Positions 23,721-60,845 of a DNA stretch of 64,000 nt are shown here, one piece after another. Each line of letters starts with the position of its first letter. The stretch's first letter is position 1. Below the pieces are notes generated by a model that saw only the letters and a program-made list of their open reading frames with translations, was not told the DNA's origin and searched no databases. The stretch covers positions 4,039,648 through 4,103,647 of the forward strand of contig NZ_CP168006.1 in NCBI RefSeq assembly GCF_041521385.1. The letters run 5' to 3'. This DNA is from Alcaligenes faecalis (lineage in GTDB: Bacteria > Pseudomonadota > Gammaproteobacteria > Burkholderiales > Burkholderiaceae_B). The translations under genes and the position numbers were made by a program.

Positions 23721-24920
23721 TTACTTCCAACCCAGGCTATGGGATTGCTCCAGCGCCTGGTGACGTTGATCATCATCGGTATGCAGGTAAATATTGGTCG
23801 TAGCGATGGACTCATGGCCCAGGGTGTCACGGATGATACGTAAATCCACGCCTTGATCAGCCAGGTGTGAACCTGCCGAGTGGCGCAGCCAGTGTGCCGA
23901 GGCCTGCTCCAGAATACGAGCCTGGGGCTCCTGATCAGGATGCAAGCTCCGTAAACGATCCGCACTACCTTGAAAAACCTGTTTGACCAGCACATGCGCC
24001 ATGGCCCGCGTCAGATGCTTGTCGCCGGCGCCGGCGGACATCAATAAAGGATAGGGCTCCAAAGCCTGGGGGAAACCTTCCAGGCCATACGCCTGCCGAT
24101 AGCGCATCAATTCGTCAAACAGCTCTTGCGTTAAAGGCACACGACGCCATTTGTCGCCCTTACCGTGGATATGCAGCCACCATTGGGCTGTCGCTCCCGT
24201 ATCAGCACGTTCCTGAACATCGGCCATACGCGCCTGAACCAGTTCGGAAATGCGTAGGGCACCGCCATAAAGAATAGAAAAGAGCCAGCGCACCCGGGCT
24301 TTGTAACGCAACTCGCTCTGTGTATCTTCAGGAAGGGCCTGGATGTATTCTTGCACCCAACGCCATTGCAGTCGGCTCAAATACCGTTGCTGAGGAGCGG
24401 TAGCTTTCTTTTGACGACGGCCCTGATGAGACAAGGCCAAAGGATTGCCCGCCAAATACCCCGCCTGTACCAGCCAGCTAAATAAAGAGTTCAGAATCAA
24501 TAAAGCCTGATTCCGGCTGCTTTCAGACAAAGGCCCCGCAAATGGCCGCCACGCCGCATGGTGACGGGCAGGGCGAGAGCCCCCTTGCACCACCCAGCGA
24601 TGCACTGGTTGGGGATCAGCCAAAAACAAACGATAGGCCAGGATATCCTCCAGGCTAAGCGAGGACAGATCCTTGCGACGCTCCAATACCGCCCACAGCA
24701 AAAGGCGCTCCGCCTCCTTGCGGTAGTTCGCGTAAGTGCGCGGGCTATCTATATAGCGTGCCAACCAGGCCCGCAGCGCCTCTATATCTGTTTGCGCCTC
24801 AATCTGCGCCCGCCCACCCAGAGAACGGTTTGCTCCTTGCCGCCCATCAAAACGGGCCAGTAATTGAGCAATATCGTCCGATCCCAAATCGGTTGAGGGC
24901 GAAGTATTGGCTATTTCCAT
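23721..24920 (-). CDS. Tyrosine recombinase / phage-type integrase
   Basis: Site-specific recombinase of 399 aa. An N-terminal SAM-like core-binding domain (about residues 45-180) precedes the catalytic domain. All catalytic residues are visible: Arg223 in GALRISEL, a lysine in HGKGDKW, His343 and Arg346 in HWLRHSAGSHL, His369 in LGHESIATT and the nucleophile Tyr378 in TTNIYLH. The enzyme appears complete. It is divergent from a kfrA-like gene across a 189-base AT-rich gap with a long palindrome. No element bounded by att repeats was found around it, so it may be an orphan chromosomal recombinase rather than part of a young island. Confidence 0.9.
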   Translation of the reverse strand: MEIANTSPSTDLGSDDIAQLLARFDGRQGANRSLGGRAQIEAQTDIEALRAWLARYIDSPRTYANYRKEAERLLLWAVLERRKDLSSLSLEDILAYRLFLADPQPVHRWVVQGGSRPARHHAAWRPFAGPLSESSRNQALLILNSLFSWLVQAGYLAGNPLALSHQGRRQKKATAPQQRYLSRLQWRWVQEYIQALPEDTQSELRYKARVRWLFSILYGGALRISELVQARMADVQERADTGATAQWWLHIHGKGDKWRRVPLTQELFDELMRYRQAYGLEGFPQALEPYPLLMSAGAGDKHLTRAMAHVLVKQVFQGSADRLRSLHPDQEPQARILEQASAHWLRHSAGSHLADQGVDLRIIRDTLGHESIATTNIYLHTDDDQRHQALEQSHSLGWK

Positions 24921-30408: not shown

Positions 30409-31938
30409 CTATACCTGCTCACTCACTTGATCCGACAAGGCTGGCTCATTCAGGCTGATCATGTGCTCATCCAAAGACTCCAGCGTTTCCACAACGGTAC
30501 GCAACACCTGAATACGAGCCGCTTTTTTATCCTTGCTGGGCACAATATGCCAGGGCGCCATATGAGTATCGGTCTGGGCAAACATCTCCTCAGCCGCGCG
30601 TTGATACGCCGTCCACTTGCCCCGATTACGCCAATCCTCTTCCGTAATCTTGTAGGCCTTGAAGGGAGTTTCTTCGCGAGCCTTGAAACGCTTGAGCTGC
30701 TCGTCCTTATCAATATCCAGCCAGAATTTAATCACTGCCGTACCATTGGCCAGCAGTTGCGCCTCAAACTCATTGATTTCCTCGTAAGAACGGTGCCAAG
30801 CAGCGCGGGTGATCAATCTCTCAACTCGCTCGACCAGCACTCGCCCGTACCAGGAACGATCAAAAATGGAGATCTCCCCCAGGCGCGGCAATTTACGCCA
30901 GAAACGCCATAGATACGGACGTGCCAGCTCCACCGCATTAGGGGCAGAAATAGGGTGGATGTCGTAAGTACGCACATCCAGAGCCTCGGTCAAACGGCGA
31001 ATAGTGCCGCCTTTACCCGCAGCATCACGCCCCTCAAAGACCAGCACCAAAGAATGCTTACGGAACGCTTTGCTACGTACCGCGCCGGACAAGCGGCCCT
31101 GCCAATGCAAAAGCTCCGCATCATAATCCAGCACAGGCTCCGCTGGAGGAGGGGACTGCAAGGTGGCGGTCGGCACATTCAAACGAAACGGGAAAGCATA
31201 CGGCTCTTTGACCTGTCGCGGGACAATCGGTTTGTCCAAGGCTTGCAACACGACTTTTGCCAAAGACACATTACGCAAGTTTGGATCGGCACTGGGGATG
31301 ACCACCCAAGGGGCGTAATTTCTATGAGTCAGATTAATGGTTTGTGTGGCCGCATTGCGCAATTGCTTGAATTTCTTGTGAACCTTCAAGTCTGCCTTGC
31401 TAACACGCCAAGCTGTATTTGGGTCGGCCATCAAAGCCGTGCATCGGTTCAACTGAGCTTGGGCGGAGAGGTGGAACCATAACTTCAACACCTGCACGCC
31501 CTGAAAGGCCAACTGCGCCTCAAAACGATTGATCAAATGGGTGTATAGGGCGATCTTGGTCGAATCCGGCTTTTTGCGGCCCAGCTCTTTCATCAAAGGG
31601 GCATACCAGGAGCCGAACACCAACCCCGTCTGACCGCGAACAGGCAGCCGATTCCAATAACGCCACATTAAAGGCCGCATGGCTTCTTCTTCACTTAACT
31701 TGCCAAAAGCCAAGGTATGGACGTGACGAGGGTCCAGCCAAGTATTCAAGGTATTAATCGCCGAGCCTTTCCCCACACCATCCATACCTGCCACCACAAT
31801 CAGCAAGGTTTGATCCGCCTTTTGCAAGCGTTCGTACTGCTTCATCAACAGCGCCTCGCGCAGCGCATCAATCTGCGTCTTGGCTAAGTCATCACTCAAG
31901 CTGGGATCGCGTTCGGCAAACTGTAATACATGGCCCAT
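30409..31938 (-). CDS. pap: Polyphosphate:AMP phosphotransferase (two PPK2 domains)
   Basis: Tandem PPK2 protein of 509 aa which transfers phosphate from polyphosphate to AMP (class II PPK2), making ADP. Each half has a Walker A: VVAGMDGVGKGSAINTL in the first domain and VFEGRDAAGKGGTIRRL in the second, each with a following DRSWY or FGSWY lid-type motif. Only the second half carries the fully canonical DRSWYGRVLVERV, fitting the known pattern of one degenerate and one active domain. Start 31938 (MGHVLQ) was preferred to an ATG 15 codons upstream. It is the last chromosomal gene before the ICE boundary. Confidence 0.9.
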   Translation of the reverse strand: MGHVLQFAERDPSLSDDLAKTQIDALREALLMKQYERLQKADQTLLIVVAGMDGVGKGSAINTLNTWLDPRHVHTLAFGKLSEEEAMRPLMWRYWNRLPVRGQTGLVFGSWYAPLMKELGRKKPDSTKIALYTHLINRFEAQLAFQGVQVLKLWFHLSAQAQLNRCTALMADPNTAWRVSKADLKVHKKFKQLRNAATQTINLTHRNYAPWVVIPSADPNLRNVSLAKVVLQALDKPIVPRQVKEPYAFPFRLNVPTATLQSPPPAEPVLDYDAELLHWQGRLSGAVRSKAFRKHSLVLVFEGRDAAGKGGTIRRLTEALDVRTYDIHPISAPNAVELARPYLWRFWRKLPRLGEISIFDRSWYGRVLVERVERLITRAAWHRSYEEINEFEAQLLANGTAVIKFWLDIDKDEQLKRFKAREETPFKAYKITEEDWRNRGKWTAYQRAAEEMFAQTDTHMAPWHIVPSKDKKAARIQVLRTVVETLESLDEHMISLNEPALSDQVSEQV

Positions 31939-32091
31939 CGTGTATCGCTCCGTTTCACATAGCTCGTCACTATAACCATGCAAGGGGAGACTTAACTACC
32001 TTGGAGGAAAAATAATCCGCAGAAAAACAGTAGCCAGAAAGAGCGTCGCGGCGATTCTTTAGGGGGAGAGACGAAATGCTATCACCCAATG

Positions 32092-32119
32092 ACTTTACAT
32101 AATATACATTATGCGATGT
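32092..32119 (-). other. dif-like Xer recombination site at the chromosome/ICE boundary
   Basis: Read on the minus strand: XerC-side arm ACATCGCATAA, centre TGTATA, XerD-side arm TTATGTAAAGT. Against E. coli dif as remembered, 22 of 28 positions agree, including the whole centre and the inner halves of both arms; the outer four bases of the XerC arm differ. It lies between the chromosomal pap gene and the first ICE gene. It may be the replichore dif site, an ICE attachment junction, or both. The remaining 350-base gap (31939-32288) shows no gene. Confidence 0.75.
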
Positions 32120-32170
32120 TTCCCAGCCGTCCTCTAGGGAGGAAAACGAGCCTGTTCAGCAGTCTTTTGC

Positions 32171-32182
32171 ATTATGTGAAGT
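32171..32182 (+). other. Second, partial XerD-arm-like sequence in inverted orientation
   Basis: ATTATGTGAAGT resembles the XerD half of the nearby dif-like site (one mismatch over TTATGTAAAGT) but faces the other way, about 70 bases away. No matching XerC arm accompanies it, so it may be chance. Confidence 0.25.
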
Positions 32183-32288
32183 TAGGCACCTCACAGTAAT
32201 CTAAACCGAAACCCCGTCGAAACGTTGAATTGCACGACTGATCGGACGGTAGCACAGCACTTTATCCTGTGTCAAACATCCCCTTCAT

Positions 32289-34736
32289 TCAACGATCCAA
32301 CTTTAATACTGGATTGACGGGCGGCACGGGTAAAACAAACCGGTCCGGGTCCATCAACACCACCGCCGCCAGCGAGGCGATCGGCACATTTCCTTTGCCA
32401 ATGATCTGGTAGCGCAAGATGTTGACCTTGCCACCACCTTCTACTTGCCGCATCCGATGCCACCCAGCTTTGATAACCTCTCGCTGAATCTGCATCCCCA
32501 TGGCGTCGGCCTGTTCTTCAGGCCCTGTTTGAGCCGCATAGAGCTTGAAAATCTTGGGTGAAATCAGTGCCATGCCTTCCTCTACGAAATGCACGGGTGC
32601 CCCGGATTCGTTGTACTTAATCTCACGGCTGGCCAAGCCTTGCTGCAGCCACTGTATAAACGCCGTCGCGGCTTCACTGGGTTCCTTCACAGGAGCTTCG
32701 TGCGGTAGTTCAGGCAGGCTCGGGGTCAACACGACAGGCGTGGTGTTGGCCTGGCTGAACATGCGTTGCGATTTTGCCTGTGTCTTTGGAGCAGACTCAG
32801 GCTCAAGAACCGGCGCTTTAGGCGTCGGTAAGGCTGGTAATGCTCCAGGTGTGTGCTCAACAGAGGCTGGCTCAACACTTTTAGCCTGTGCTGCAGCTAG
32901 GGCTGTTGCTTCATGTTTATGTAATTTTTTGCCTGGCACAGGCGTGGGTTTATGCGACGCTTGCGGTGGGCTGCGATGAATAATGTTGGATGCTGTATCA
33001 GCTTCATCTAGAAAGTCATCGTCAACATCAAAGCCATCTACGGCGAGTTCGGCTGGCAAAATCACCGTCTCGTCGTCGTATGCCTGAATCGAAGCAGTTT
33101 GGTGAGTATTGCTTGAGGTTGGCACAGGTTTGGGCTGGTTGCCGCTTTGCGTTGCGCCATTTTTCGGTGTTTGACGCTTGGCTGCGCCAGTTGACGCATT
33201 TTTGGGCTTTCTAAACTCCATTGCTGGTACGAGATTACGCTTGGGTGCTGCAGTTTGGGAACGAGCTGAAGCAGTTTTGGCCGTTGTGGCCACCTTTTGC
33301 GGCAATATTCCTTCATCAATGTGTTCTGGAGCAGCTTTGGCTTGAATGACTGTTGTGTCAGCGCTGTGCTCACAATCAACCGCAGCTGGATCAGCCTCTG
33401 TTTCAAACTCATCATCGCCACGCTTGGCCCGGACATGGATCTCTCCGGACATCGCCGGTGGGTATAAGTTTGGATCATCATAGAGCTTTGACAGTGGAAA
33501 GCGCAGCACACTTAGTCTGTGTCGATATTGATGGGTTTCTGTGCCCTCTTCTGTTGCCGGCGTTTGCCCGTTGATTTCAACGTGCCAAATAGCTTGGCCA
33601 GAATGAGGACTGACTTGCAAGATTCCATATTCCTGCCATGTGTCAAACAGCCTATCGTTCTTGGCCTCTCCAGGTACAGACTCGTCAGGCTCATGCTTTT
33701 TAATCCAGGCCCGCGTGGCATCGGCCAAACGCTTAGCCACAAACCACACAGAGCCGTCATACACCCATCCGGCAGCTCCAGTACGATTGAGCGGCAATTC
33801 CGTTCCAGACTGCAACATGCTTTTGAGCGCTTGCATGAGTAAATCCACCAGCGGTACTGCATTGGCTGTCGCAAAACGAGCCTTACTGCCCTTCATCAAT
33901 GCGTTGCTGGTGGAGGCCTGGTCAGCGCGTTTGATAATGTCAGCCAATAATCCATCCTTGTGGCCAGACAAATAATGAGTCAGCGCATCAAAGGCGTGAG
34001 GCGTTTGGGACAAAAAAGTTAAGGCAGATTTTGGTGCAATCTGATGAAGCAGGGTCAGTGCCAGGCGATTATGGGCCTGGTAGTCCCGGCTGGCTTTTGG
34101 CTCAAACTCGACCCGATACTCCAGATCCAGACGCCCCTGCCCCACTTCGAACAAGGAGCCAGCCAGCGGTTTCCATCGCAACGGTTCATCCATCGCCCCG
34201 CCTCGCCATAAGATCCGTAGGTCTGTCATCGGTTTGGCAATGTCATGAAGCAGTGCCGCGTAGAAGACCACATAGGTCCACTGATCACGCTCGGCGTCAA
34301 TCTGCTCAACGGGAGCATTCGTAGGTAAAAAATGCGCGTTTCGCCAGGTCATGGCTGCCAATACCATCTCAAGCGTATGGGCCAACAAACCACCAGCGTG
34401 GGCGTGATGGTGTGCTTCTGAGGCAGGCATAAGCTGGACGTATTCTGCATATCGTCGGATAGCTGGGATGAAATCTCGTCGAAAAACAGGATCTGCTACG
34501 CGAGACTGCAGGAACATTTGATGAACCGCTTTTTGAGCTTTCAGCAGACGGATCAAGTCATCAGACTCAAGAACACGCAACCACCCTTCCTCCCGCCCTG
34601 CTACACGTTGGGCAACTGGAACTGGTGGGGGGCTTGGAGGTGGCGGAACCGGTGCGGGCTTAGTCGTACTGGAGGCGCGTCGCGGAATAAAAGTGGAGAA
34701 CTTCGAGATCCAAGGCGGGGTTCGGCGGTGAGTCAT
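32289..34736 (-). CDS. traI: MobH-family ICE relaxase TraI
   Basis: Conjugative relaxase of 815 aa (TraI_2/TIGR03760 type), which nicks oriT and pilots the DNA strand. The N-terminal third holds the relaxase region with the HD-hydrolase-like histidine cluster SEAHHHAHAGGLLAHT (about 109-121) and LLHDIAKP (162-169), diagnostic of MobH. A low-complexity linker of Pro, Ala, Thr and Lys (about 470-690) leads to a C-terminal domain (FIQWLQQGLASREIKYNESGAPVHFVEEGMALISPKIF) of the TraI_2_C type. It is transcribed leftward toward the dif-like site, with a small gene 3 bases upstream. Confidence 0.93.
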   Translation of the reverse strand: MTHRRTPPWISKFSTFIPRRASSTTKPAPVPPPPSPPPVPVAQRVAGREEGWLRVLESDDLIRLLKAQKAVHQMFLQSRVADPVFRRDFIPAIRRYAEYVQLMPASEAHHHAHAGGLLAHTLEMVLAAMTWRNAHFLPTNAPVEQIDAERDQWTYVVFYAALLHDIAKPMTDLRILWRGGAMDEPLRWKPLAGSLFEVGQGRLDLEYRVEFEPKASRDYQAHNRLALTLLHQIAPKSALTFLSQTPHAFDALTHYLSGHKDGLLADIIKRADQASTSNALMKGSKARFATANAVPLVDLLMQALKSMLQSGTELPLNRTGAAGWVYDGSVWFVAKRLADATRAWIKKHEPDESVPGEAKNDRLFDTWQEYGILQVSPHSGQAIWHVEINGQTPATEEGTETHQYRHRLSVLRFPLSKLYDDPNLYPPAMSGEIHVRAKRGDDEFETEADPAAVDCEHSADTTVIQAKAAPEHIDEGILPQKVATTAKTASARSQTAAPKRNLVPAMEFRKPKNASTGAAKRQTPKNGATQSGNQPKPVPTSSNTHQTASIQAYDDETVILPAELAVDGFDVDDDFLDEADTASNIIHRSPPQASHKPTPVPGKKLHKHEATALAAAQAKSVEPASVEHTPGALPALPTPKAPVLEPESAPKTQAKSQRMFSQANTTPVVLTPSLPELPHEAPVKEPSEAATAFIQWLQQGLASREIKYNESGAPVHFVEEGMALISPKIFKLYAAQTGPEEQADAMGMQIQREVIKAGWHRMRQVEGGGKVNILRYQIIGKGNVPIASLAAVVLMDPDRFVLPVPPVNPVLKLDR

Positions 34737-34739
34737 GCT

Positions 34740-35279
34740 CTAACGTTCAAGCAAATGGGCTCGCAACGTCTCCAGAGTCGGACGAGGATGTCGCAATGTG
34801 AGCAAAATATGCAGTGACTCAGTGGGATGTTGCGGATCGCCCAGCTGCAGGAAATGGAACCAGCTCATCTGCAGTGGATTCCATTGAATTGAATCAGGAT
34901 CAGGCAGCATATTTTTGCCCCAGTGGGCCCGATAATGGACAAATGGCTGCTGCAAAATATCTTCAACAATGCTCTCTTTGCGCCCTGCGAGATCTACGGC
35001 CTGGCTGCTTTCTTGCGCCAGGTTCTGACAATGATTCTTCAAAATCTCTCTCACACACAGATGAGGATCATCTTCATCCTCGGCATAAATTTCTAATCCG
35101 TCATAACGCGATAGCCAGGCTGAAAAATGGGGGACCCATTCAGCCAATCCGAGCTCAGTCAGGAGCTCGACAATGCGGTAAATCGCATGAGCACGGTCGT
35201 GCGCATCACGCCCAAAATGGGGGAACCCAGGATCGGGGTATGGATGCTCGTTTTCAGCGAGGTGGGCGAGGATAGTCAT
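34740..35279 (-). CDS. Hypothetical protein upstream of and coupled to traI
   Basis: Soluble acidic protein of about 179 aa, unrecognised. It begins MTILAHLAENEHPYPDPGFPHFGRDAHDRAHAIYRIVELLTELG and has no signal or membrane segment. The stop lies 3 bases before the traI start, so the two are translated together. An ATG 12 codons further upstream is possible. Location at the head of the relaxase operon suggests a relaxosome accessory or conserved ICE protein. Confidence 0.7.
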   Translation of the reverse strand: MTILAHLAENEHPYPDPGFPHFGRDAHDRAHAIYRIVELLTELGLAEWVPHFSAWLSRYDGLEIYAEDEDDPHLCVREILKNHCQNLAQESSQAVDLAGRKESIVEDILQQPFVHYRAHWGKNMLPDPDSIQWNPLQMSWFHFLQLGDPQHPTESLHILLTLRHPRPTLETLRAHLLER

Positions 35280-35409
35280 AGCGGCCACTCTACAAAGCGG
35301 TTTGCTATCACTCAACGCGATACCGGGTGCGACGTAACCTAGGGTTCTCGCTTGCGCGCAACGTTAAGTTCTGATAAGTCACAGCCCGCTATGCTGGCCG
35401 AGGCCATTT

Positions 35410-35444
35410 GCAGCGCTTCACCCAGCCCCTGGGTGAAGCGCTGC
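35410..35444. other. 15-bp perfect inverted repeat in the traI/tra control region, oriT candidate
   Basis: GCAGCGCTTCACCCA (35410-35424) and TGGGTGAAGCGCTGC (35430-35444) around a 5-base loop. It lies 130 bases upstream of the traI operon and 366 upstream of the PilL-like gene. No T-run follows, which argues against a terminator. Strong dyads near nic sites are usual at oriT, and ICEclc has an oriT next to its relaxase gene. The rest of the 35,316-35,809 gap (494 bases) holds the site at 35,608 and presumably promoters. Confidence 0.5.
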
Positions 35445-35607
35445 GTAACCCGTAAGCCCCCTTTTCCCCTACCTGTAAAGCCTTTCCCGACGGCCACCGG
35501 ATTTTTAGGTGGACGGCGGCCCTTTGGATAAGGCCCTTGACCCGTAGCAACCTTTTCCCAGTAGCGGATTGACGCCCCGGCAGTCCGTCAACACATTCTT
35601 GTTCTAG

Positions 35608-35625
35608 TTGTATTGTGCAATGCAA
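35608..35625. promoter_or_regulatory. Palindromic operator candidate upstream of the tra operon
   Basis: TTGTATTG-TG-CAATGCAA is a near-perfect inverted repeat 185 bases before the first transfer gene. Thirteen bases plus the CAA end recur before the SprT-like gene at 61,334. A possible -35 TTGTAT inside it pairs with TTTAAC 17 bases later. Confidence 0.5.
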
Positions 35626-35809
35626 AACATTTTAACTTGAATACCCTTTCTTCACTTACTCAAAAACGCATATAGCAGGCCGCGCGGATAACGCACATAA
35701 CTGTTTTCGTCAAGCTGAAACCCCGTGTTACGTGACCTTGGGTTAACGAGCGACACCTTGGGGTGCCTTTGCAACACTGAACGCCATTCTCAATCGGATG
35801 GAGTACTTC

Positions 35810-36364
35810 ATGAGCTGGACAGCTAGACTCGCTGTTGCCGCGCCACTGGCTGTTTTGGCGTTGCAGGCCCAAGCCCAGGTCGGGGATACCTACGACAACG
35901 GCACACAGGTGCGAATAGGACAATACAGCACACAAGCCAGCACACCAGGGCATAGCGTTTCTGATCCCCTGTCTGTGTTTGTGGCACTGACTTACCCACG
36001 TCAAGACGTAGCCACCATTGATGGTGCGATTGAGTACACCCTCAAACGGACTGGCTGGCAGCTTGATCGCTCCAAGCTGTCGCTAGAAGCCGCGCAGTTT
36101 CTTCGCTTACCCCTTCCAGAGTCCCAGCGGTCGCTGGGCACGTATCGAGTGCGTGATGTCTTAAATGCACTCGTAGGTGAGACCTGGCGCTGGGACGAGG
36201 ACCCCATCCGTCGCAGACTGTGGATCAGTCTAGCGGCACAGCCGACTCTGTCAGGCGTCGAACTGACACAGAATTGGCTCCACGCCCAAACCTACCCCGT
36301 CACAGTTGACCCTAAAAAGCCGTGGTTGCCCCTGACCGAGCGCATCAGCGGGGTGCAGCCATGA
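35810..36364 (+). CDS. ICE type IV pilus/PilL-like protein (TIGR03748 family)
   Basis: Exported protein of 184 aa, first gene of the transfer operon. A signal peptide (about residues 1-19, ending ALQAQAQ) precedes a domain with the PilL-N/TIGR03748 pattern: DPLSVFVALTYPRQDVATIDGAIEYTLKRTGWQL, YRVRDVLNALVGETWRWDEDPIRRRLW. ATG at 35810 with GGAG upstream is preferred over the ATG four codons earlier. Its stop overlaps the next start as ATGA. PFGI-1-type elements carry this gene at the head of their transfer region. Exact role is unknown. Confidence 0.82.
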   Translation: MSWTARLAVAAPLAVLALQAQAQVGDTYDNGTQVRIGQYSTQASTPGHSVSDPLSVFVALTYPRQDVATIDGAIEYTLKRTGWQLDRSKLSLEAAQFLRLPLPESQRSLGTYRVRDVLNALVGETWRWDEDPIRRRLWISLAAQPTLSGVELTQNWLHAQTYPVTVDPKKPWLPLTERISGVQP

Positions 36365-47795: not shown

Positions 47796-48291
47796 AACTG
47801 CCCAACGCCTGGCGCTGGCTCTAATCACCACCGCCATGTTCAGCGGTTGCACCGTCATGATGGATCGCGAATCCCCACTTAATGAGGTCACTAAGGATTC
47901 GCCAACGGTGCTGGACGTCTACCGAGGTACTGACTATCGAAACGAAGCGACCCGTCAGTCACGCATCACCCCCCAGGAACGGATGCGTGAGCGCACTCAA
48001 GCCAGACCGATTAATCCAGGTGATGAGTTAACCCAGCGATATTGGTCAGCTGTTGATTCCATGAACCAGCGATTTGCTCGGCTGCCAAATCCTGACCTGG
48101 TAATGGTGGTGTTTCCGCATCTGGCCAAGGGCCAGTATCCGGTTCCAGGCTACGTGACCGTCTTCCCGATGTACGACCAGACACAGTATGCGCTACCTGG
48201 TGAAGTCACCCAGGACTTACTGCAATGGAGACGTGACTACTTTTCTGCGAAACCAAGCCCCAACAAGAAGGGAGCCGCAGATGATCGCTAA
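47782..48291 (+). CDS. ICE lipoprotein, TIGR03751, VirB7/TraV-like
   Basis: 169-aa lipoprotein: signal ALALITTAMFSGC with lipidated Cys23, then a soluble domain with TVLDVYRGTDYRNEATRQSRITPQERMRERTQARPINPGDELTQRYWSAVDSMNQRFARLPNPDLVMVVFPHLAKGQYPVPGYVTVFPMYDQTQYA. Family TIGR03751; position between the VirB10-like and VirB4-like genes fits the outer-membrane lipoprotein (VirB7/TraV) of the channel. It overlaps both neighbours, by 14 and 11 bases. Confidence 0.88.
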   Translation: MVWNKTAQRLALALITTAMFSGCTVMMDRESPLNEVTKDSPTVLDVYRGTDYRNEATRQSRITPQERMRERTQARPINPGDELTQRYWSAVDSMNQRFARLPNPDLVMVVFPHLAKGQYPVPGYVTVFPMYDQTQYALPGEVTQDLLQWRRDYFSAKPSPNKKGAADDR

Positions 48292-51202
48292 TGTGGCCAG
48301 CCTATTCGGACTCAAGCGTCAAAGCGCAACACAGCCAAGTGGTAAGCGTTCACCACAGAGCACGATTCAGGCCCTCTCTCCAGGGCAGACCGTGGCAGAT
48401 CGTCGACGCATGGCCCTGCGGCCACCGTCGTTTACCGACATGCTGCCCTATATCAGCTATGCCCCCGATGAGCGCATTTTTGTGTTGCGTGATGGCAATA
48501 CCCTCGGGGCAATGTTTGAGCTCTCTCCCATTGCGACCGAGGCCATGCCTATCGAAATCCTGAATGAACACGCCCAGAAGATTCAGGAGGCCTTGCAAGC
48601 CATGCCATCGGTCAACGGCGCACCGTGGATTGCTCAGTTTTTTGTCAACGATGACCGTAACCTAGATCATCTTAATGACACTTTCACCGACTATATCCTG
48701 GAGCAACACAAGGACGATGGCCTGGGCCAGGAGATCCTGAACTCGCCGTTTACCCAGGCGGTATTGGATGAGGTGCGCTCGCATCTGTCGAATGTCTCGC
48801 AACCCAATGGCCTGTTCACCGATACGCTTGTCACCGGTCAAGTCTGGCGCGGGCAGATCCGCCGTGTCCGTTGTTGCCTGTATCGTCGATTTGGCGGTGC
48901 AGCCGATGATCCACAAACGCCGGTGCAGCAAATCGAGTCGGTGGCCAACACCATCATGGCCACGTTTTCCGAAGCCGGTGTAGCCGTTCGCCGCTGCACC
49001 GGCAAAGACCTGTATGAGTGGCTACTGCCGTTTTTTAACCGTGATCTGCCTTGGGCGCCAGGCACGCAAATGATGCGTGAATTACCCTATCCCGGCGACA
49101 CCCCGTTGACCGATGACGAGGATACGCCCATTTTTGGATGGGACTTGTCAGAGCTATTGAGCATCAATGAGCCCCGTTCGAACCTGGAACAGGGATTGTT
49201 TGAATTTGATGGCGTACCCGTCAAGGCGTTGACCCTGCAAAATATGCGCAAGCAGCCTGAGATTGGTCATTTCACGGCGGAGCTGGCCAACGGTAAAGAG
49301 CGATTTGCACGATTTGACCGTCTGCCTCCCGGCTCGATGCTCTCGGTCTCCATCACGATTGCGCCGCAGCACATCGTAGAGTCACAAATTGAGCGGATCC
49401 GGGATGCCTCACGCGCCAAGACCGCCCAGGCCATCGAGACCTACCGGGAATGCTCCAATGTTTTGAGTGAAATAGTTCGGGGCAACCACCTGTTTCCAAT
49501 GATGGTGACCCTGTACGCGACTGCCACCAGCACAGATGAACTCGATAGCAACATCAACACGATTAATGCGCTGTTGATCCCATCAGGCCTGAAGTTCATC
49601 AGCAATCAGCATGACCTGGTCCCGCTGGACACATTCATGCGGGCGCTGCCGTTTAACTATGACCCTGCCTTCGATAACCAGGTACTTCGTCGATCCCGTC
49701 TGACCTTCGCCTCCCATATTGCGCGTCTCTTACCGCTGTATGGCCGTGCCCGTGGCACACCCCACCCTGGTATGTGGTTCTGGAATCGCGGCGGGGAACC
49801 CTTGTTTGTGGATCCGCTCAACAAACGCGATCGTAAAAAGAACGCCCATATGTTGGTGCTGGGACCGACCGGAGCCGGTAAATCGGCCACCTTGAACTAC
49901 ATCGCCATGATGACGATGGCCATTCATCGGCCACGGCTGGTGATTGTCGATGCCGGGAACTCCTTCGGCCTTTTGGTGGATTTTTTTAAAGACAGAGGGC
50001 TATCGACCTACAAAGTTGAACTGAACAGTAGTGCAAAAGTGTCCTTGCCACCGTTCGTTCATGCGTACCAACTACTAGATGATAGTGAAGTGATGGAGAG
50101 CTTTGTGGCGGCCGAGCAGCAGGCACGAAGCAACGCAGGCCTGCCCGATGACGAGCTGCTCAATGCCCTGCTTGGCCAAGATGATGAGCCGTCGACTGCC
50201 GACGTGTCTTTTCATGAAACGTTCCAGGCCAGGGAAGAGGACGAAGAGCAGGACGACGAGCTGGATAAAAGAGACTTGCTGGGCGAGATGCTGATTGCCG
50301 CGATCCTGATGATCACAGGAGGTGAAGCGGACGAAGTCGCACAAATGAGTCGAGCCGACCGCTACCTGGTATCACGCGCCATCATTATGGCCGCGATCAG
50401 TTGCAAGGAACGGGGAGCCAAGCACCCGTTGACGCAAGATGTGGCCCTGCAGCTCATGCACATGAATAAAGACCAGACCATGTCACCGGCGCGGCGGGCC
50501 CGCGCCGAAGAAATGGGCCAGTCCATGATGACATTCACTCAGGCACTGCGAGGCAAATTATTCAATCGCGAGGGCCAGGACTGGCCGGATGCAGATGTCA
50601 CTCTAGTTGAGATGGGTACGCTCACTCAAGACGGCTATGAAGACGCCTTGGCAGTTGCATACACAAGCCTCATCGACTCAGTACAGTCCCGTGCCGAGCT
50701 GAACCAACACTCTGGTCGCCCGATGGTGTTCCTTACGGACGAGGGCCACTTGATCACAACCAATGAGCTGCTTGGCCCCAAGATAGCCAAGGGCACCAAA
50801 ATGTGGCGCAAATTCAATACCTGGTTCTGGCTTGCCACACAAAACCTGAAAGACTTCCCCGACTCCATGGAGCGCGTGCTCTCGATGTGTGAGTACTGGA
50901 TGCTGCTGACCATGGACAAAGCGGAGATTGAAGAAGTGGTGCGGTTCCGGTCGCTCACCAACGAGCAGCGAGCGATGATGGAATCCGCCCAAAAGGAGCC
51001 CCCGAAATACACGGAAGGGGTGCTGATTTCTGCGACCGGCCAGATGCTCTTTCGCAACGTCCCTCCTGCTCTTCCCATTGCGCTGGCCATGACCGAGGGT
51101 CATGAGAAAGCACACCGCCGTCGCCTGATGGATAAACATGGAATCAACGAAATGGGTGCGGCTCAAATGGTGGCACAAGAACTGGCCCGGAGTCGCTCAT
51201 GA
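48281..51202 (+). CDS. traC: ICE conjugative ATPase, VirB4/TraC-like (TIGR03744)
   Basis: 973-aa cytoplasmic/membrane ATPase that powers pilus assembly and DNA transfer. Walker A GPTGAGKS is at residues 528-535, and MVFLTDEGHLI supplies Walker B near residue 823, with NTWFWLATQNLKDFPDSM downstream. The N-terminal half has the VirB4-like TLGAMFELSPIATEAMP and AKTAQAIETYRECSNVLSEIVRGNHLFPMMVTLYA. An acidic insert (about 640-660, AREEDEEQDDELDKRD) is family-typical. ATG 48281 has GGGAG; longer starts lie in the lipoprotein gene. Its stop overlaps the TIGR03757 start. Confidence 0.94.
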   Translation: MIANVASLFGLKRQSATQPSGKRSPQSTIQALSPGQTVADRRRMALRPPSFTDMLPYISYAPDERIFVLRDGNTLGAMFELSPIATEAMPIEILNEHAQKIQEALQAMPSVNGAPWIAQFFVNDDRNLDHLNDTFTDYILEQHKDDGLGQEILNSPFTQAVLDEVRSHLSNVSQPNGLFTDTLVTGQVWRGQIRRVRCCLYRRFGGAADDPQTPVQQIESVANTIMATFSEAGVAVRRCTGKDLYEWLLPFFNRDLPWAPGTQMMRELPYPGDTPLTDDEDTPIFGWDLSELLSINEPRSNLEQGLFEFDGVPVKALTLQNMRKQPEIGHFTAELANGKERFARFDRLPPGSMLSVSITIAPQHIVESQIERIRDASRAKTAQAIETYRECSNVLSEIVRGNHLFPMMVTLYATATSTDELDSNINTINALLIPSGLKFISNQHDLVPLDTFMRALPFNYDPAFDNQVLRRSRLTFASHIARLLPLYGRARGTPHPGMWFWNRGGEPLFVDPLNKRDRKKNAHMLVLGPTGAGKSATLNYIAMMTMAIHRPRLVIVDAGNSFGLLVDFFKDRGLSTYKVELNSSAKVSLPPFVHAYQLLDDSEVMESFVAAEQQARSNAGLPDDELLNALLGQDDEPSTADVSFHETFQAREEDEEQDDELDKRDLLGEMLIAAILMITGGEADEVAQMSRADRYLVSRAIIMAAISCKERGAKHPLTQDVALQLMHMNKDQTMSPARRARAEEMGQSMMTFTQALRGKLFNREGQDWPDADVTLVEMGTLTQDGYEDALAVAYTSLIDSVQSRAELNQHSGRPMVFLTDEGHLITTNELLGPKIAKGTKMWRKFNTWFWLATQNLKDFPDSMERVLSMCEYWMLLTMDKAEIEEVVRFRSLTNEQRAMMESAQKEPPKYTEGVLISATGQMLFRNVPPALPIALAMTEGHEKAHRRRLMDKHGINEMGAAQMVAQELARSRS

Positions 51203-56803: not shown

Positions 56804-58135
56804 ATGCTCCGGACTGTAAGTCTGTTCAGTGGGTGTGGGGGCCTCGACTACGCCTTCCAGTCCAAAGGGTTCGACCTCGTGTTTGCGGCTGACAACGATC
56901 CCAAGGCGATCGAGGTCTATCGGCGCAACGTAGATGAGCGAGCCTACGTTTACGATGTGGTATCGGCTGAATTCCATGAGGCTATCGAAAAGATCGGTCA
57001 ATGCGACGTTGTACTGGGAGGGTTTCCCTGTCAAGGCTTCTCCAAGGCTGGCCCAAAACGAGCAGATGACGAACGCAATGCTCTCTATCAGGAGATGAAG
57101 CGAGCAGTCGCGGCACTTAAACCGACAATCTTTATTGCCGAGAATGTCGATGGGCTGCACCAAAATTTTGGCGGGCATTATCTGAAATCAATTATTAACG
57201 ACTTTGCCGACCTGGGTTATTCCGTTGAATTCAAAATTCTCGACGCTGCAGCTTTCGGTGTGCCTCAGCACCGTAGAAGAATAATCTTTGTCGGAACCAA
57301 GTTCGAGTCTCACCACTCCTTTCATTGGCCTCAGCCAACACACGCGGCTAAATCCCGTAACGGAGAATTCTCAATCGTAAATGACGCACTGTCATTATGG
57401 GATACTGAAAATACGGCGAGTGTGCTTGCACCACCAGTCACTATGCATGACGCAATTAGCGACCTTGTTACGCTAGGCGGTGTTTCCGACCATGCCGTTA
57501 TCAAAAAATGGCCAGAAAAGTATGAACACGTGTTCCGAGCCATTGGACCAGGTCAAAAACTTTGCAATGTACGACACGCTGCAACTGCTGTTTATACGTG
57601 GAACATACCTGAGGCTTTCGGTTACGTAACGGTACGCCAAAAAAAAATCTTAGAGACTATTGGCTTAAACCGTAGGCACAAGCAATACGGCGACATACCG
57701 AACGGAAACCCTTTGTCTTTAGAAGTTATACAGGAATTGTCCGGCTTATCAGAAATTAACTGTGACGAAATAGATGATTTATTGACCAAAAACTATATCA
57801 AGGAAGTAGCTGGAAAATATGATCTGAAGGGTGCTATGTTCAATTCCGGCCTCTTTAAGCGTCCGGATTGGAATGAACCGTCCCCCACAGTTCTTACTAT
57901 ATTTGATAACCCGCGCTATTTTCTTCATCCTTCCGAAAATAGACCCTTAAGCTTACGCGAATGTGCCCGACTGCAAAGCTTCCCTGATAGTTTTATTTTC
58001 TCACAAGGCGATGAGGCGTCTTTAAAAGCGGGCTACAGATTGGTCGGCAACGCGGTGCCCCCATTGCTTGGACAACATCTCGCGATATCTGTTAAAAACT
58101 ATGTCGAACAATCTAAAGGAAAGGTCACTCAGTGA
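56804..58135 (+). CDS. DNA (cytosine-5-)-methyltransferase
   Basis: C5-methyltransferase of 443 aa. Motif I is SLFSGCGGLDYAF, IV is GGFPCQGFSKAG with catalytic Cys, VI is ENVDGL, VIII is AAFGVPQHRRRIIFVG, IX/X is LRECARLQSFP with RLVGNAVPPLLGQ. The target-recognition region between VIII and IX contains a helical, winged-helix-like insert (VTVRQKKILETIGLNRRHKQYGDIPNGNPLSLEVIQELSGLSEINCDEIDDLL). AAAGGAAG precedes the start. The stop overlaps the next gene (GTGA). GC drops relative to the tra genes, suggesting a transferred cassette. Recognition sequence unknown. Confidence 0.93.
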   Translation: MLRTVSLFSGCGGLDYAFQSKGFDLVFAADNDPKAIEVYRRNVDERAYVYDVVSAEFHEAIEKIGQCDVVLGGFPCQGFSKAGPKRADDERNALYQEMKRAVAALKPTIFIAENVDGLHQNFGGHYLKSIINDFADLGYSVEFKILDAAAFGVPQHRRRIIFVGTKFESHHSFHWPQPTHAAKSRNGEFSIVNDALSLWDTENTASVLAPPVTMHDAISDLVTLGGVSDHAVIKKWPEKYEHVFRAIGPGQKLCNVRHAATAVYTWNIPEAFGYVTVRQKKILETIGLNRRHKQYGDIPNGNPLSLEVIQELSGLSEINCDEIDDLLTKNYIKEVAGKYDLKGAMFNSGLFKRPDWNEPSPTVLTIFDNPRYFLHPSENRPLSLRECARLQSFPDSFIFSQGDEASLKAGYRLVGNAVPPLLGQHLAISVKNYVEQSKGKVTQ

Positions 58136-59796
58136 AACTAAATGAACAACAAAAATCAGTTCCAGAATGGCTTGGTGAGTTTGACGTATGGGTAACACCA
58201 TCGCTAACTGATTTAAAAGATACTAGAAAATTTAAGGATGTATTAAGTAGCGTTGTAGACGTTTTCGATACCCTCGGCCCAATTGTGGCTGACTTTAAAG
58301 ATCCGTCGGTAGTTTCCACTGCGGGAATAGCCGAGGCTTATACAGCGTTAGTATGCTCACGGATAGAGCAGCGCTCAGAAAGTGCGTCTAAAAGCACTCC
58401 GGAGGGCATCGCACTCACAGCGCTTCAGGCTTTTGCATCAGCACTTTTCATCGTAACAGGCAAATCAGACAACAATCACAAATGTCAGTTTCCACTCTAC
58501 CTAAAGAACCAGTTGGGTTGGACATCTCTGCCCACTCGTAAAAAAACACGTGGGAAGGTTGAGATTGTTGAGCAAGCTATACCGAGGGTGCTGAAGTCGG
58601 ACGTATATATGGCACGCGTTGCGGCGTTGCTCGTCGAATTTGAAGACGGCGGTATGACTCCTGATGTCAATCCATGCCGCCAAATCGCCACTCAATTATT
58701 GAATCAATTCGTAGAGTTTGTTCTGGCTGGCGATCATGCTCGGGAGCAATTTACTGTCCTTACTCAAAGCTATTGGCAATTAAAGCAAAGTGGTAAAGCA
58801 GCCAGCGCTTTACTCGCACCTCTCGTTGCATTTCAAGTGAGAGGTTCGGTGTCTGCATCAGGAGGCCATGAACCAGAAGATCGGCTGAGGCGTTATATGC
58901 TGGACTGGGGCCTTAGGTCCGATGTTGATTTCAACAGAACTGATGTCGTGCTTGACGTCGAAGCTGGGAGACTTGAAGAGACTGACCTTCCTCCAGACGC
59001 TGCTGATGCAGAGGAATCTGCAAACCAAGACAAAAAAACCCGCGCATTTGATTTCGTCTTACCATTTCGGGTCGACGGCTGGAGTCCGCGCCTATTTGTT
59101 CAATCTCAATTTTACGCAGGTGACTCGGGCAGTGTTTCCCACAAGAATGTTGACCAAACAGATACATCTCGTTTGAACGCCGAGGCTGTTATGGCTAGAT
59201 CTTGGTCCAATTCGCCCGGTCCATTATTTTTAGAGTATGTTGATGGAGCAGGCTATTCATCTGCACTTGCGGGGGATTTGAGGAAAATACTTTCGAAGTC
59301 TACTACAGACGATTTTTTCCAAATTCGAAGTGCTGCTATTCGCTTACGCCGTAAGCTACAGCAGATTGGTTTCCTGACGCCTCTCGAGATTGCACACGCC
59401 ATTATCCGTACACAGGGCCAGAAAGATGGCGTTATAAATCTTCTGTCTAAAGAGGGCTACACCCCCGTCGAGATCTCTAGAGCAATCACAGTCTCCATAC
59501 AGACAGGTTTAGTCAAAACTGTTGACCAAGAGACTATCGCAGTTAATGTGGAGGGCGAAGATACAGTTCGCAGATATCTTTTGCTCGATTTAATCGCGAA
59601 TTCGGGAAAGACTTTTGATTCTGCAGTCGGGTTGCAAGGAGTTGTACTTGTGCCAGGCTTTGGACCATATTTTGGTGCGGAACTGGAAATGCTTGGTGTG
59701 CTTATAGAAACTGATATACCTGGAGTTTGGCGCACATCGACATTCACCGCTGATCTGAAATGGTTGTGCTCGGTAGGTTTCGTTATCCTACGATAA
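58132..59796 (+). CDS. Uncharacterised protein coupled to cytosine methyltransferase, probable restriction endonuclease
   Basis: 554 aa, unrecognised. It overlaps the methyltransferase stop by four bases, the usual layout of a type II restriction pair. A PD-(D/E)XK-like nuclease core is suggested: EPEDRLRRYMLDWGLRSDVDF near residues 247-268, Asp307 in RAFDFVLPF and Gln324-x-Gln326 in LFVQSQFYAGDSGSVSHKN. The canonical ExK is replaced by QxQ; BglII-type enzymes use an ExQ variant. A helix-turn-helix-like region follows at about 415-470, PLEIAHAIIRTQGQKDGVINLLSKEGYTPVEISRAITVS. Low GC. Not homologous by eye to any family I can name. Confidence 0.55.
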   Translation: MKLNEQQKSVPEWLGEFDVWVTPSLTDLKDTRKFKDVLSSVVDVFDTLGPIVADFKDPSVVSTAGIAEAYTALVCSRIEQRSESASKSTPEGIALTALQAFASALFIVTGKSDNNHKCQFPLYLKNQLGWTSLPTRKKTRGKVEIVEQAIPRVLKSDVYMARVAALLVEFEDGGMTPDVNPCRQIATQLLNQFVEFVLAGDHAREQFTVLTQSYWQLKQSGKAASALLAPLVAFQVRGSVSASGGHEPEDRLRRYMLDWGLRSDVDFNRTDVVLDVEAGRLEETDLPPDAADAEESANQDKKTRAFDFVLPFRVDGWSPRLFVQSQFYAGDSGSVSHKNVDQTDTSRLNAEAVMARSWSNSPGPLFLEYVDGAGYSSALAGDLRKILSKSTTDDFFQIRSAAIRLRRKLQQIGFLTPLEIAHAIIRTQGQKDGVINLLSKEGYTPVEISRAITVSIQTGLVKTVDQETIAVNVEGEDTVRRYLLLDLIANSGKTFDSAVGLQGVVLVPGFGPYFGAELEMLGVLIETDIPGVWRTSTFTADLKWLCSVGFVILR

Positions 59797-60115: not shown

Positions 60116-60142
60116 ATACCTCAGCCCTCATCACACTCTGTA

Positions 60143-60469
60143 TTACTTAGCGATTCCCAAGAAAACAGCAAGGCACCGTTCAATTTCTACCAGTGTATCA
60201 GCACTAACAGATCCAAAGGCTTGGCCAATCTTATCCCGTTTAACAGTCAACGCCTTATCAATCATGATTTGCGAAGGTTTTTGTAGACCATTTTCTAGGT
60301 CTGGCTGAATGCTAATGCGCAATAAGGGCGCATTCACAATTGTGCTGGTTACTGGGAGCACTGTGACCGAGGAATGGGCAGCGAACAAATCCGCTTGGAT
60401 CACTAATGCAGGCCGAGGCTTTCCAAAATCCCCTTGCATTGCAACAGTAACTAGATCCCCACGTCTCAT
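60143..60469 (-). CDS. Type II toxin, MazF/PemK family
   Basis: 108-aa mRNA interferase, MRRGDLVTVAMQGDFGKPRPALVIQADLF at the N-terminus with the SH3-like fold pattern; HSSVTVLPVTSTIVNAPLLRISIQP and LQKPSQIMIDKALTVKRDKIGQAFGSVS are the usual second half. It cleaves mRNA ribosome-independently in this family. Start at 60469 overlaps the antitoxin stop as ATGA; an ATG three codons earlier is unlikely. The pair probably stabilises the element in the host. Confidence 0.9.
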   Translation of the reverse strand: MRRGDLVTVAMQGDFGKPRPALVIQADLFAAHSSVTVLPVTSTIVNAPLLRISIQPDLENGLQKPSQIMIDKALTVKRDKIGQAFGSVSADTLVEIERCLAVFLGIAK

Positions 60470-60684
60470 TCTGTCCAACCATCCAGGTCAGCCAGAGCCT
60501 CATCCATAAAATGTTCTGTATCCACATCGGTCTTGTCTGCCTTGGCTACCCGCTGCGCCTGGCGGCGGCATTCCGCCGCAAAATCGGGCCGACGTGTATC
60601 AGGCACCCAAAGCTGCACTGGGCGCAATCCTGCTTGCCGGAGGGAATCCCGGTGCTTCTGAACTCTCGCGTTTACATTTGCCAT
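60466..60684 (-). CDS. Antitoxin, MazE/DUF3018 family
   Basis: 72-aa antitoxin with the DUF3018-type N-terminus RVQKHRDSLRQAGLRPVQLWVPDTRRPDFAAECRRQAQRVA, an N-terminal DNA-binding region, and a C-terminal acidic tail (HFMDEALADLDGWTE) that would bind the toxin. Start 60684 follows a GGAGGTCAAG site. Stop overlaps the mazF start. Autorepression of the operon is usual in this family. Confidence 0.88.
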   Translation of the reverse strand: MANVNARVQKHRDSLRQAGLRPVQLWVPDTRRPDFAAECRRQAQRVAKADKTDVDTEHFMDEALADLDGWTE

Positions 60685-60845
60685 CTTGACCTCCATAACT
60701 ATGCACTTATAGTACGGCCATTACCCGTTACATGCAACATGCTTCGACAGTTGTATGCAACGCAAAGACAAGGCCCCTTGAGTTCGTGATCGATAGCCCA
60801 GCGTCCCCCGCTCAAGCCGAAACAGCCATCAATTACATCACCCCA

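Follow-up and report, generated by a model that had tools for sequence, protein, structure and literature searches.

The dif site and its neighbourhood

The window, by which we mean the whole 64,000-nucleotide stretch analysed here, belongs to Alcaligenes genome G000 and to its contig C1; the other Alcaligenes genomes used for comparison are labelled G001 to G009. At 32092–32119 the window reads ACTTTACATAATATACATTATGCGATGT (reverse complement ACATCGCATAATGTATATTATGTAAAGT), an intact genus-type dif that lies on the minus strand as ACATCGCATAA-TGTATA-TTATGTAAAGT, with its XerD arm at 32092–32102, its centre at 32103–32108 and its XerC arm at 32109–32119. It shares 22 of 28 bases with what we take to be the E. 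coli dif, so that both the number and the placing of the differences had been given correctly in the initial annotation. The Bordetella pertussis dif, as printed in the passage of PMC2731167 that deals with it, is identical to the site at 26 of 28 positions. The 19-bp core is unique in the window, and none of 100 shuffles of the window contains a match to it at up to three mismatches; across the genome (4,147,169 bp), the site is the sole full dif at the same threshold. At up to two mismatches, exactly one dif is present in each of the ten Alcaligenes genomes and at least one in 50 of the 61 genomes of the whole draw. Measured from dnaA, dif lies at 0.49 of the genome length in G001, G003 and G006 and at 0.44 in the G000 assembly, which identifies it as the dif of the terminus. 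The GC skew, which the initial annotation had proposed as a further check, is negative on both sides (-0.037 to the left, -0.073 to the right) and is thus no marker of the terminus at this locus.

On the XerD side of dif lies the chromosomal gene for polyphosphate:AMP phosphotransferase (30409–31983, minus strand; TIGR03708), whose frame lies 108 bp from the site and which aligns beside dif in ICE-free relatives. On the other side, a gap of 169 bp that holds no integrase gene separates dif from traI. The site had been placed between these two genes, exactly at the junction of chromosome and ICE, and the alignments bear this out: those of the ICE-free genomes G006 and G008 to G000 stop at window position 32121. 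In window orientation the left junction reads ACTTTACATAA-TATACA-TTATGCGATGT-TTCCC, and the DNA beyond the XerC arm is that of the element, near-identical in G000, G001 and G003. These three genomes have the ICE left terminus (GTTTCCCAGCCGTCCTCTAGGGAGGAAAACGAGCCTG..., 32118–32164, plus strand) in common; it is also found, with few substitutions, in G005, where it diverges after ~50 bp. The suggestion that the divergent outer XerC arm derives from the element fared unevenly. The outer bases ATGT also occur in the ICE-free genomes G004, G006 and G008, so that in G000 the difference from E. coli is no evidence of such an origin, but from the junctions of G001 and G003 it is clear that the left-end arm is indeed the element's.

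Neither an integrase nor a tRNA had been noted near this end, and this stands: ARAGORN finds no tRNA in the window, and its sole PF00589 match is a frame at 23721–24920, ~7 kb from dif on the chromosome side. There is no Rfam match in window 31900–36000, and a candidate hairpin at the ICE left terminus was discarded (z -0.75; 45 of 200 shuffles fold equally well).

Gene content of the element

The part of the ICE inside the window spans 32120–64000 and continues to C1:31048–31076. Its first gene at the dif end is traI (32289–34736, minus strand), a MobH relaxase of the PFGI-1 class with matches to NF041494 and TIGR03760 above cut-off. The transfer module follows at 35798–56485 (plus strand), with PilL2, a TraD coupling protein, a TraC-type ATPase (48188–51202) and proteins of the families TIGR03749, TIGR03750, TIGR03752, TIGR03755 and TIGR03756, as assigned by profile scans on part of its frames. 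These five families and TIGR03748, TIGR03754, TIGR03744, TIGR03761 and TIGR03764 were likewise matched above cut-off, and TIGR03759 below it. At the far end of the ICE are genes for a ParA-like ATPase (Pfam AAA_31 and CbiA; under the NCBIfam ParA cut-off), ParB (TIGR03764), a TIGR03761 protein and ssb, which make up the opposite end of a PFGI-type element. The PFGI-1-class backbone is thus represented by its relaxase, coupling protein, T4SS and ParB, in agreement with the initial reading of a PFGI-class ICE with MobH and a T4SS beside dif, and from this gene set the ICE is predicted to transfer itself by conjugation. As judged by the one protein compared, the TraC-type ATPase, the T4SS is not the F-like one of the gonococcal island family: the score is 1218 bits to TIGR03744 (PFL_4706) versus 111 to F-type TraC, for which the cut-off is 567.

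The second junction and the crossover interval

A strict search for a second dif gave one match only, the site already described, and the second site emerged from comparison with ICE-free relatives. It lies at the far ICE end in direct orientation, at C1:31048–31076 (L013:11048–11076), and is degenerate with a 7-bp centre, which is why the strict search missed it. Below, the intact dif is called attL and the degenerate site attR. The initial annotation had suggested looking for just such a direct repeat, and a degenerate one is present at the other ICE end in all three ICE-bearing genomes; it had also held that a single dif with unrelated ICE ends would speak against the proposal. One full dif is literally what there is, but the far end is a dif mimic and the two ends are related. 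Nor are there the tRNA-derived att repeats, or the tyrosine integrase beside traI, of a PFGI-1-type arrangement: the att sites are of dif type at both ends, and scans for tRNA genes were negative for the window and for all but one of six other loci, the exception being a tRNA-Trp in L011, inside a misplaced chromosomal piece at the contig end.

In window orientation the right junctions read ACTTAACATAA-AGCGACA-TTATGCGATGT-TTATAAAG in G000, ACTTAACATAA-AGCCACA-TTATGCGATAA-TTGCC in G001 and ACTTAACATAA-AGCGACA-TTATGCGATTT-TTATAATT in G003. The XerD arm and centre of attR come from the element; the outer XerC arm and the flank vary among the three genomes, and the flanks match ICE-free chromosomes (G006 and G008 for G000 and G003, G002 for G001). 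The XerD arm is identical to the host arm at 10 of 11 positions, and only the three XerC-proximal bases of the element's 7-bp centre match dif. In G001 and G003, attL and attR have no longer stretch in common than ACATTATGCGAT (32106–32117), and the crossover that these two junction pairs imply falls within ATCGCATAATGT, on the XerC side. G000 is consistent with this, as its common stretch of 16 bp contains ACATTATGCGAT. If the cleavage positions are those that we take to be established for dif, the interval spans the cleavage point of XerC but not that of XerD.

That an ordinary dif merely happens to lie beside the end of an ICE inserted by unrelated means might seem to draw some support from the differing extra DNA that several Alcaligenes carry next to dif on its XerC side, but with a second dif-like repeat at the other end in three of three cases, and with exact junctions, we regard such a coincidence as scarcely credible.

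The assembly of G000 deserves comment here. C1:1–19,686 is identical to window coordinates 65189–84874, an overlap of 19,686 bp; the base that follows it is N, and a chromosomal piece then runs to the contig end, which together mark an apparent mis-join (C1:1–19686 and C1:4104836–4147169, or window coordinates 65189–107522 as continued). The end piece, which the assembly puts near the terminus, holds rpoB (PF00562) and, by eye from translations, rpoC, nusG and fragments of tuf, and the distance from rpoB to dnaA is 45–58 kb in G001, G003 and G006 versus 1.87 Mb in G000. The most economical explanation is a contig that closes within the ICE and an end piece of 22.6 kb that is misplaced, in which case the G000 ICE would be ~64.1 kb long. 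Its two ends are linked only through the identical 19,686-bp overlap, whereas in G001 and G003 an ICE with the same two ends (~81.5 and 100.5 kb) is held in one contig, so that the conclusion rests more safely on those genomes.

Occupied and empty sites in Alcaligenes

Comparison of the locus with ICE-free strains of the genus, another of the checks put forward at the outset, revealed empty sites that are contiguous in G006 and G008 and, for the G001 flank, in G002. The alignments of G006 and G008 to G000 resume at attR, ~106 kb further along the joined contig, and both genomes match G003 from its attR onward; G002 matches the G001 flank from attR at 83% over the first 163 aligned bases and at 98% further out. 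A TraI at E <= 1e-30 is present in three of the ten genomes of the genus, each time beside dif. In Alcaligenes faecalis AU14, a gene with the coordinates of the G003 traI is 95% identical to the traI of the ICE.

Relative to G000, the 24-kb left arm of the ICE is 95.1% identical in G001 and 95.3% in G003, versus 78.2% and 86.0% for the left chromosome; between G001 and G003, the corresponding values are 96.3% and 79.5%. The excess is smaller for the right arm (89.1% and 93.9%, with 83.9% and 88.2% for the right chromosome). The identity of the left arm, above that of the flanking chromosome, points to horizontal transfer. These values bear on the proposal that the ICE entered dif once, by whatever mechanism, and has since been passed on by inheritance or homologous swapping with no active exploitation of Xer. 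Site and orientation are the same in all three genomes, and an ICE with these ends was not seen outside the genus among the genomes searched, both of which such a history would account for. It sits poorly with a left arm whose identity exceeds that of the left chromosome by 9 and 17 points, with three different attR flanks, each matching ICE-free chromosomes, and with the precise empty sites; we think it improbable, although in-place swapping between ICEs may occur.

In G005, dif is bordered (G005:C16, L055) by ~50 bp from the left end of the ICE and then by 614 bp of ICE cargo that is 87% identical to window 60129–60742. This genome has no TraI at E <= 1e-30 and no second dif-like site in the 60 kb read on that side, and the two pieces together are probably a remnant of an ICE.

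The ICE left end was matched in six of 268 genomes of the family, four of them Alcaligenes (G000, G001, G003 and G005); the two others have three mismatches and were taken as chance. For attR, two of 399 genomes of the order matched, in a draw that did not include G001 and G003: G000 itself and one with three mismatches, again put down to chance. A TraI at E <= 1e-30 occurs in 17 of the 399 genomes of the order and in 46 of the 268 of the family. When 49 TraI loci among the matches listed were scanned for dif-like sites, three Alcaligenes had one with no mismatch, and sites with three mismatches at five other loci were attributed to chance. Among ten named TraI loci, dif lies only at that of A. 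faecalis AU14; four-mismatch matches at two of the others were discounted in the same way. Plasmids yielded two weak matches to the ICE left end and none to the traI end (in near mode) or to the right end, and the viral_contigs collection, a poor place in which to look, yielded none to the circular attP or a free left end.

Absence of a recognised integrase

The ICE of G000 contains no match to PF00589 or PF00239, the two Pfam families that made up the recombinase search together with one-by-one scans of some ICE proteins; this answers the integrase check that the initial annotation had called for, although the ICE may contain a recombinase of an unrecognised kind. The ICE of G001 has three resolvase matches and a 337-aa integron integrase, and that of G003 has a 402-aa integrase. 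All of these fall in stretches not shared with G000, and the shared backbone is thus devoid of PF00589 and PF00239 matches.

Two chromosomal integrase-like genes flank the dif locus, at window 23721–24920 and at L007:1393–2643 (C1 ~32.7–33.9 kb). It is conceivable that one of these, or some other tyrosine recombinase, uses the dif-like sequence, as both genes are present and their positions are covered in alignments to ICE-free relatives. Yet both lie outside the ICE and align in ICE-free genomes, so the ICE does not carry them to a new host, and the att sites retain both 11-bp dif arms, as would fit XerC together with XerD; we consider this explanation very unlikely. As for the host's own recombinases, XerD scores above its curated cut-off, and a XerC homologue has XerC as its best family at 322.5 bits, under the cut-off of 335.15.

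A model for integration by XerC

It had been proposed that the ICE might be a Xer-exploiting conjugative element. What can be read directly from the DNA (both junctions, the empty sites, the crossover interval, the absence of PF00589 and PF00239 matches from the G000 ICE and the identity excess) supports this proposal, and the use of XerCD is suggested by the sites themselves. Xer-dependent integration of a PFGI-1-class ICE at dif, taken as a whole, appears to us highly probable, and this confidence takes in the XerD-first alternative discussed below, which differs only in the recombinase that acts first; for XerC-first integration by itself we would still say that it is probable, if with more reserve. 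The design of the att sites, like that of VGJphi and unlike that of the gonococcal island, favours XerC-catalysed integration of a double-stranded circle.

From these data we infer the circular form, the action of XerC, excision and transfer as follows. The circular ICE would carry a 29-bp dif mimic, ACATCGCATAA-TGTSGCT-TTATGTTAAGT (XerC arm, 7-bp centre, XerD arm), and host XerC would exchange strands between this attP and dif inside the shared ATCGCATAATGT. With the XerD side of the centre mismatched to dif, a standard exchange is unlikely to be completed by XerD, and resolution of the Holliday junction would then fall to replication or to a host resolvase. Such a reaction would leave dif intact at the traI end (attL) and a hybrid site at the parA end (attR); with attL intact, dimer resolution by FtsK and XerCD could go on. 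Excision would proceed by the same XerC reaction.

The main alternative is an integration that resembles dimer resolution, as for the gonococcal genetic island: XerD would act first, in dependence on FtsK, and XerC would finish the exchange. The target is the same, the pairing of an intact with a degenerate dif at the two ends recalls what is described for that island in the relevant passages of PMC3334931 and PMC5357621, and XerD should be able to bind an attR arm that matches the host's at all but one position. Against it, the mismatches on the XerD side of the 7-bp centre should block XerD strand exchange, the crossovers in G001 and G003 fall on the XerC side, with G000 compatible, and the gonococcal site is, in the account of PMC5357621 available to us, of the opposite design, with a homologous centre and a divergent XerD arm. 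We therefore regard XerD-first integration as unlikely, if slightly less so than the single ancestral entry considered above, and retain XerC-first integration as the preferred model.

Comparison with known elements at dif

Some cholera phages borrow the host's XerC and XerD to integrate at dif. The attP of one phage, VGJphi, is 29 bp long, with homology to dif on the XerC side and, on the XerD side of the centre, a mismatch that excludes XerD, and its double-stranded integration is catalysed by XerC, according to the section of PMC5357621 that treats it. The attP deduced for the Alcaligenes element is of the same length and design, with XerC-adjacent homology and a divergent XerD-adjacent part of the centre. 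The difference lies in the element, a filamentous phage of Vibrio as opposed to a conjugative element of ~64–100 kb, for which XerC catalysis is a prediction compatible with the crossover interval.

The gonococcal island had been invoked as a parallel, and the parallel holds for the dif target, the T4SS and the relaxase, its TraI being presumably MobH; it does not hold for the att sites, whose design resembles that of VGJphi, on the XerC side and not XerD-first. That island carries a T4SS, TraI and a ParA/ParB/SsbB cluster between a perfect and an imperfect dif, as described in parts of PMC3334931, PMC4207684 and PMC5357621, and the Alcaligenes ICE is likewise a large T4SS-bearing island with TraI and ParA/ParB/ssb genes at dif, flanked by one intact and one degenerate site. 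However, the T4SS of the gonococcal island is described as most like the F plasmid system, whereas that of the Alcaligenes ICE is of PFGI/ICEclc type. The gonococcal attP has a homologous XerC arm and centre with a divergent XerD arm, and is XerD-first; here we find the reverse, a divergent 7-bp centre and a good XerD arm.

With PFGI-1, PAPI-1 and the relatives of ICEclc, the element shares the MobH relaxase, TraD, the TraC-type ATPase, PilL2 and ParB, as well as a traI at one end. Pac_ICE1 is an element that we take to belong to this PFGI-1 class. In the Alcaligenes ICE, unlike in Pac_ICE1, dif is the target, traI comes first and there is no recognised integrase. In the portion of PMC6053426 that describes Pac_ICE1, that element lies next to tRNA-Lys and begins with a gene for a tyrosine recombinase, followed by traI. 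Both dif-integrated elements and PFGI-1-class ICEs are known, and their combination may be new; in the open-access literature, no PFGI-class ICE at dif was found among the matches listed, as far as their accessible passages go. In these passages, the gonococcal island is the sole T4SS-bearing element at dif, and the cell-to-cell passage of its excised circle is raised there only as a possibility. If the model is correct, an ICE of a widespread class relies on the host Xer system, conjugative elements can dispense with an integrase, their host range could extend to any cell with a compatible dif, and the Alcaligenes ICE would offer a clean system in which to study how XerC-only exchange, FtsK and conjugation coexist. 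ICE finders that rely on integrases may overlook such elements or set their boundaries wrongly.

FtsK motifs

The FtsK motif GGGNAGGG is polarised around dif, with forward/reverse counts of 11/0 in the chromosome to the left and 0/9 to the right, and it is skewed within the ICE as well (1/14 in G000, 3/15 in G001 and 0/14 in G003). For all 56 permutations of six G, an A and a free base, among them the motif, the pooled counts are 67/303, 160/295 and 106/414; as these are skewed too, the polarity in the ICE does not demonstrate selection on GGGNAGGG. It is nonetheless tempting to propose that a PFGI-1-class ICE lineage has swapped its own integrase for a dif mimic of VGJphi type, so that host XerC alone would integrate and excise 64–100 kb, and that insertion in one orientation beside an intact dif, with G-rich FtsK-orienting motifs pointing toward dif, would let it circulate between species with no harm to dimer resolution. 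We lean towards this fuller scenario, with less assurance than for XerC-first integration itself.

Cargo and other DNA at the locus

Several further features of these ICEs and their surroundings may be recorded. The G000 ICE encodes a Gabija-like defence pair at L009:2964–6525 (window coordinates 66964–70525), with PADLOC scores of 758 bits for GajB and 761 bits for GajA. A block of low GC content (~47%) at window 56804–59796 contains a gene for a C5-cytosine DNA methylase and then one for a 554-aa protein that has no family match in Pfam or PADLOC; the block may be restriction-modification cargo. The integron integrase of G001 (L067:14577–15590) scores 798 bits to its curated model, and the cargo of that ICE may include an integron. 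In G003, ~28 kb of the ICE, ~62.5–90.6 kb from dif, has no match in G000 and holds the integrase gene; this stretch sits at an SNF2-like helicase gene (window coordinate ~128691), where the flanking matches overlap by 7 bp, and is probably a nested insertion.

Extra DNA on the XerC side of dif is present in G001 (beyond attR), G002, G004, G007 and G009. No dif mimic stands out in the stretches of it that were read, which gave only four-mismatch matches. G001 and G002 share 19.6 kb at 98% identity on this side, which looks like a hotspot for insertion.
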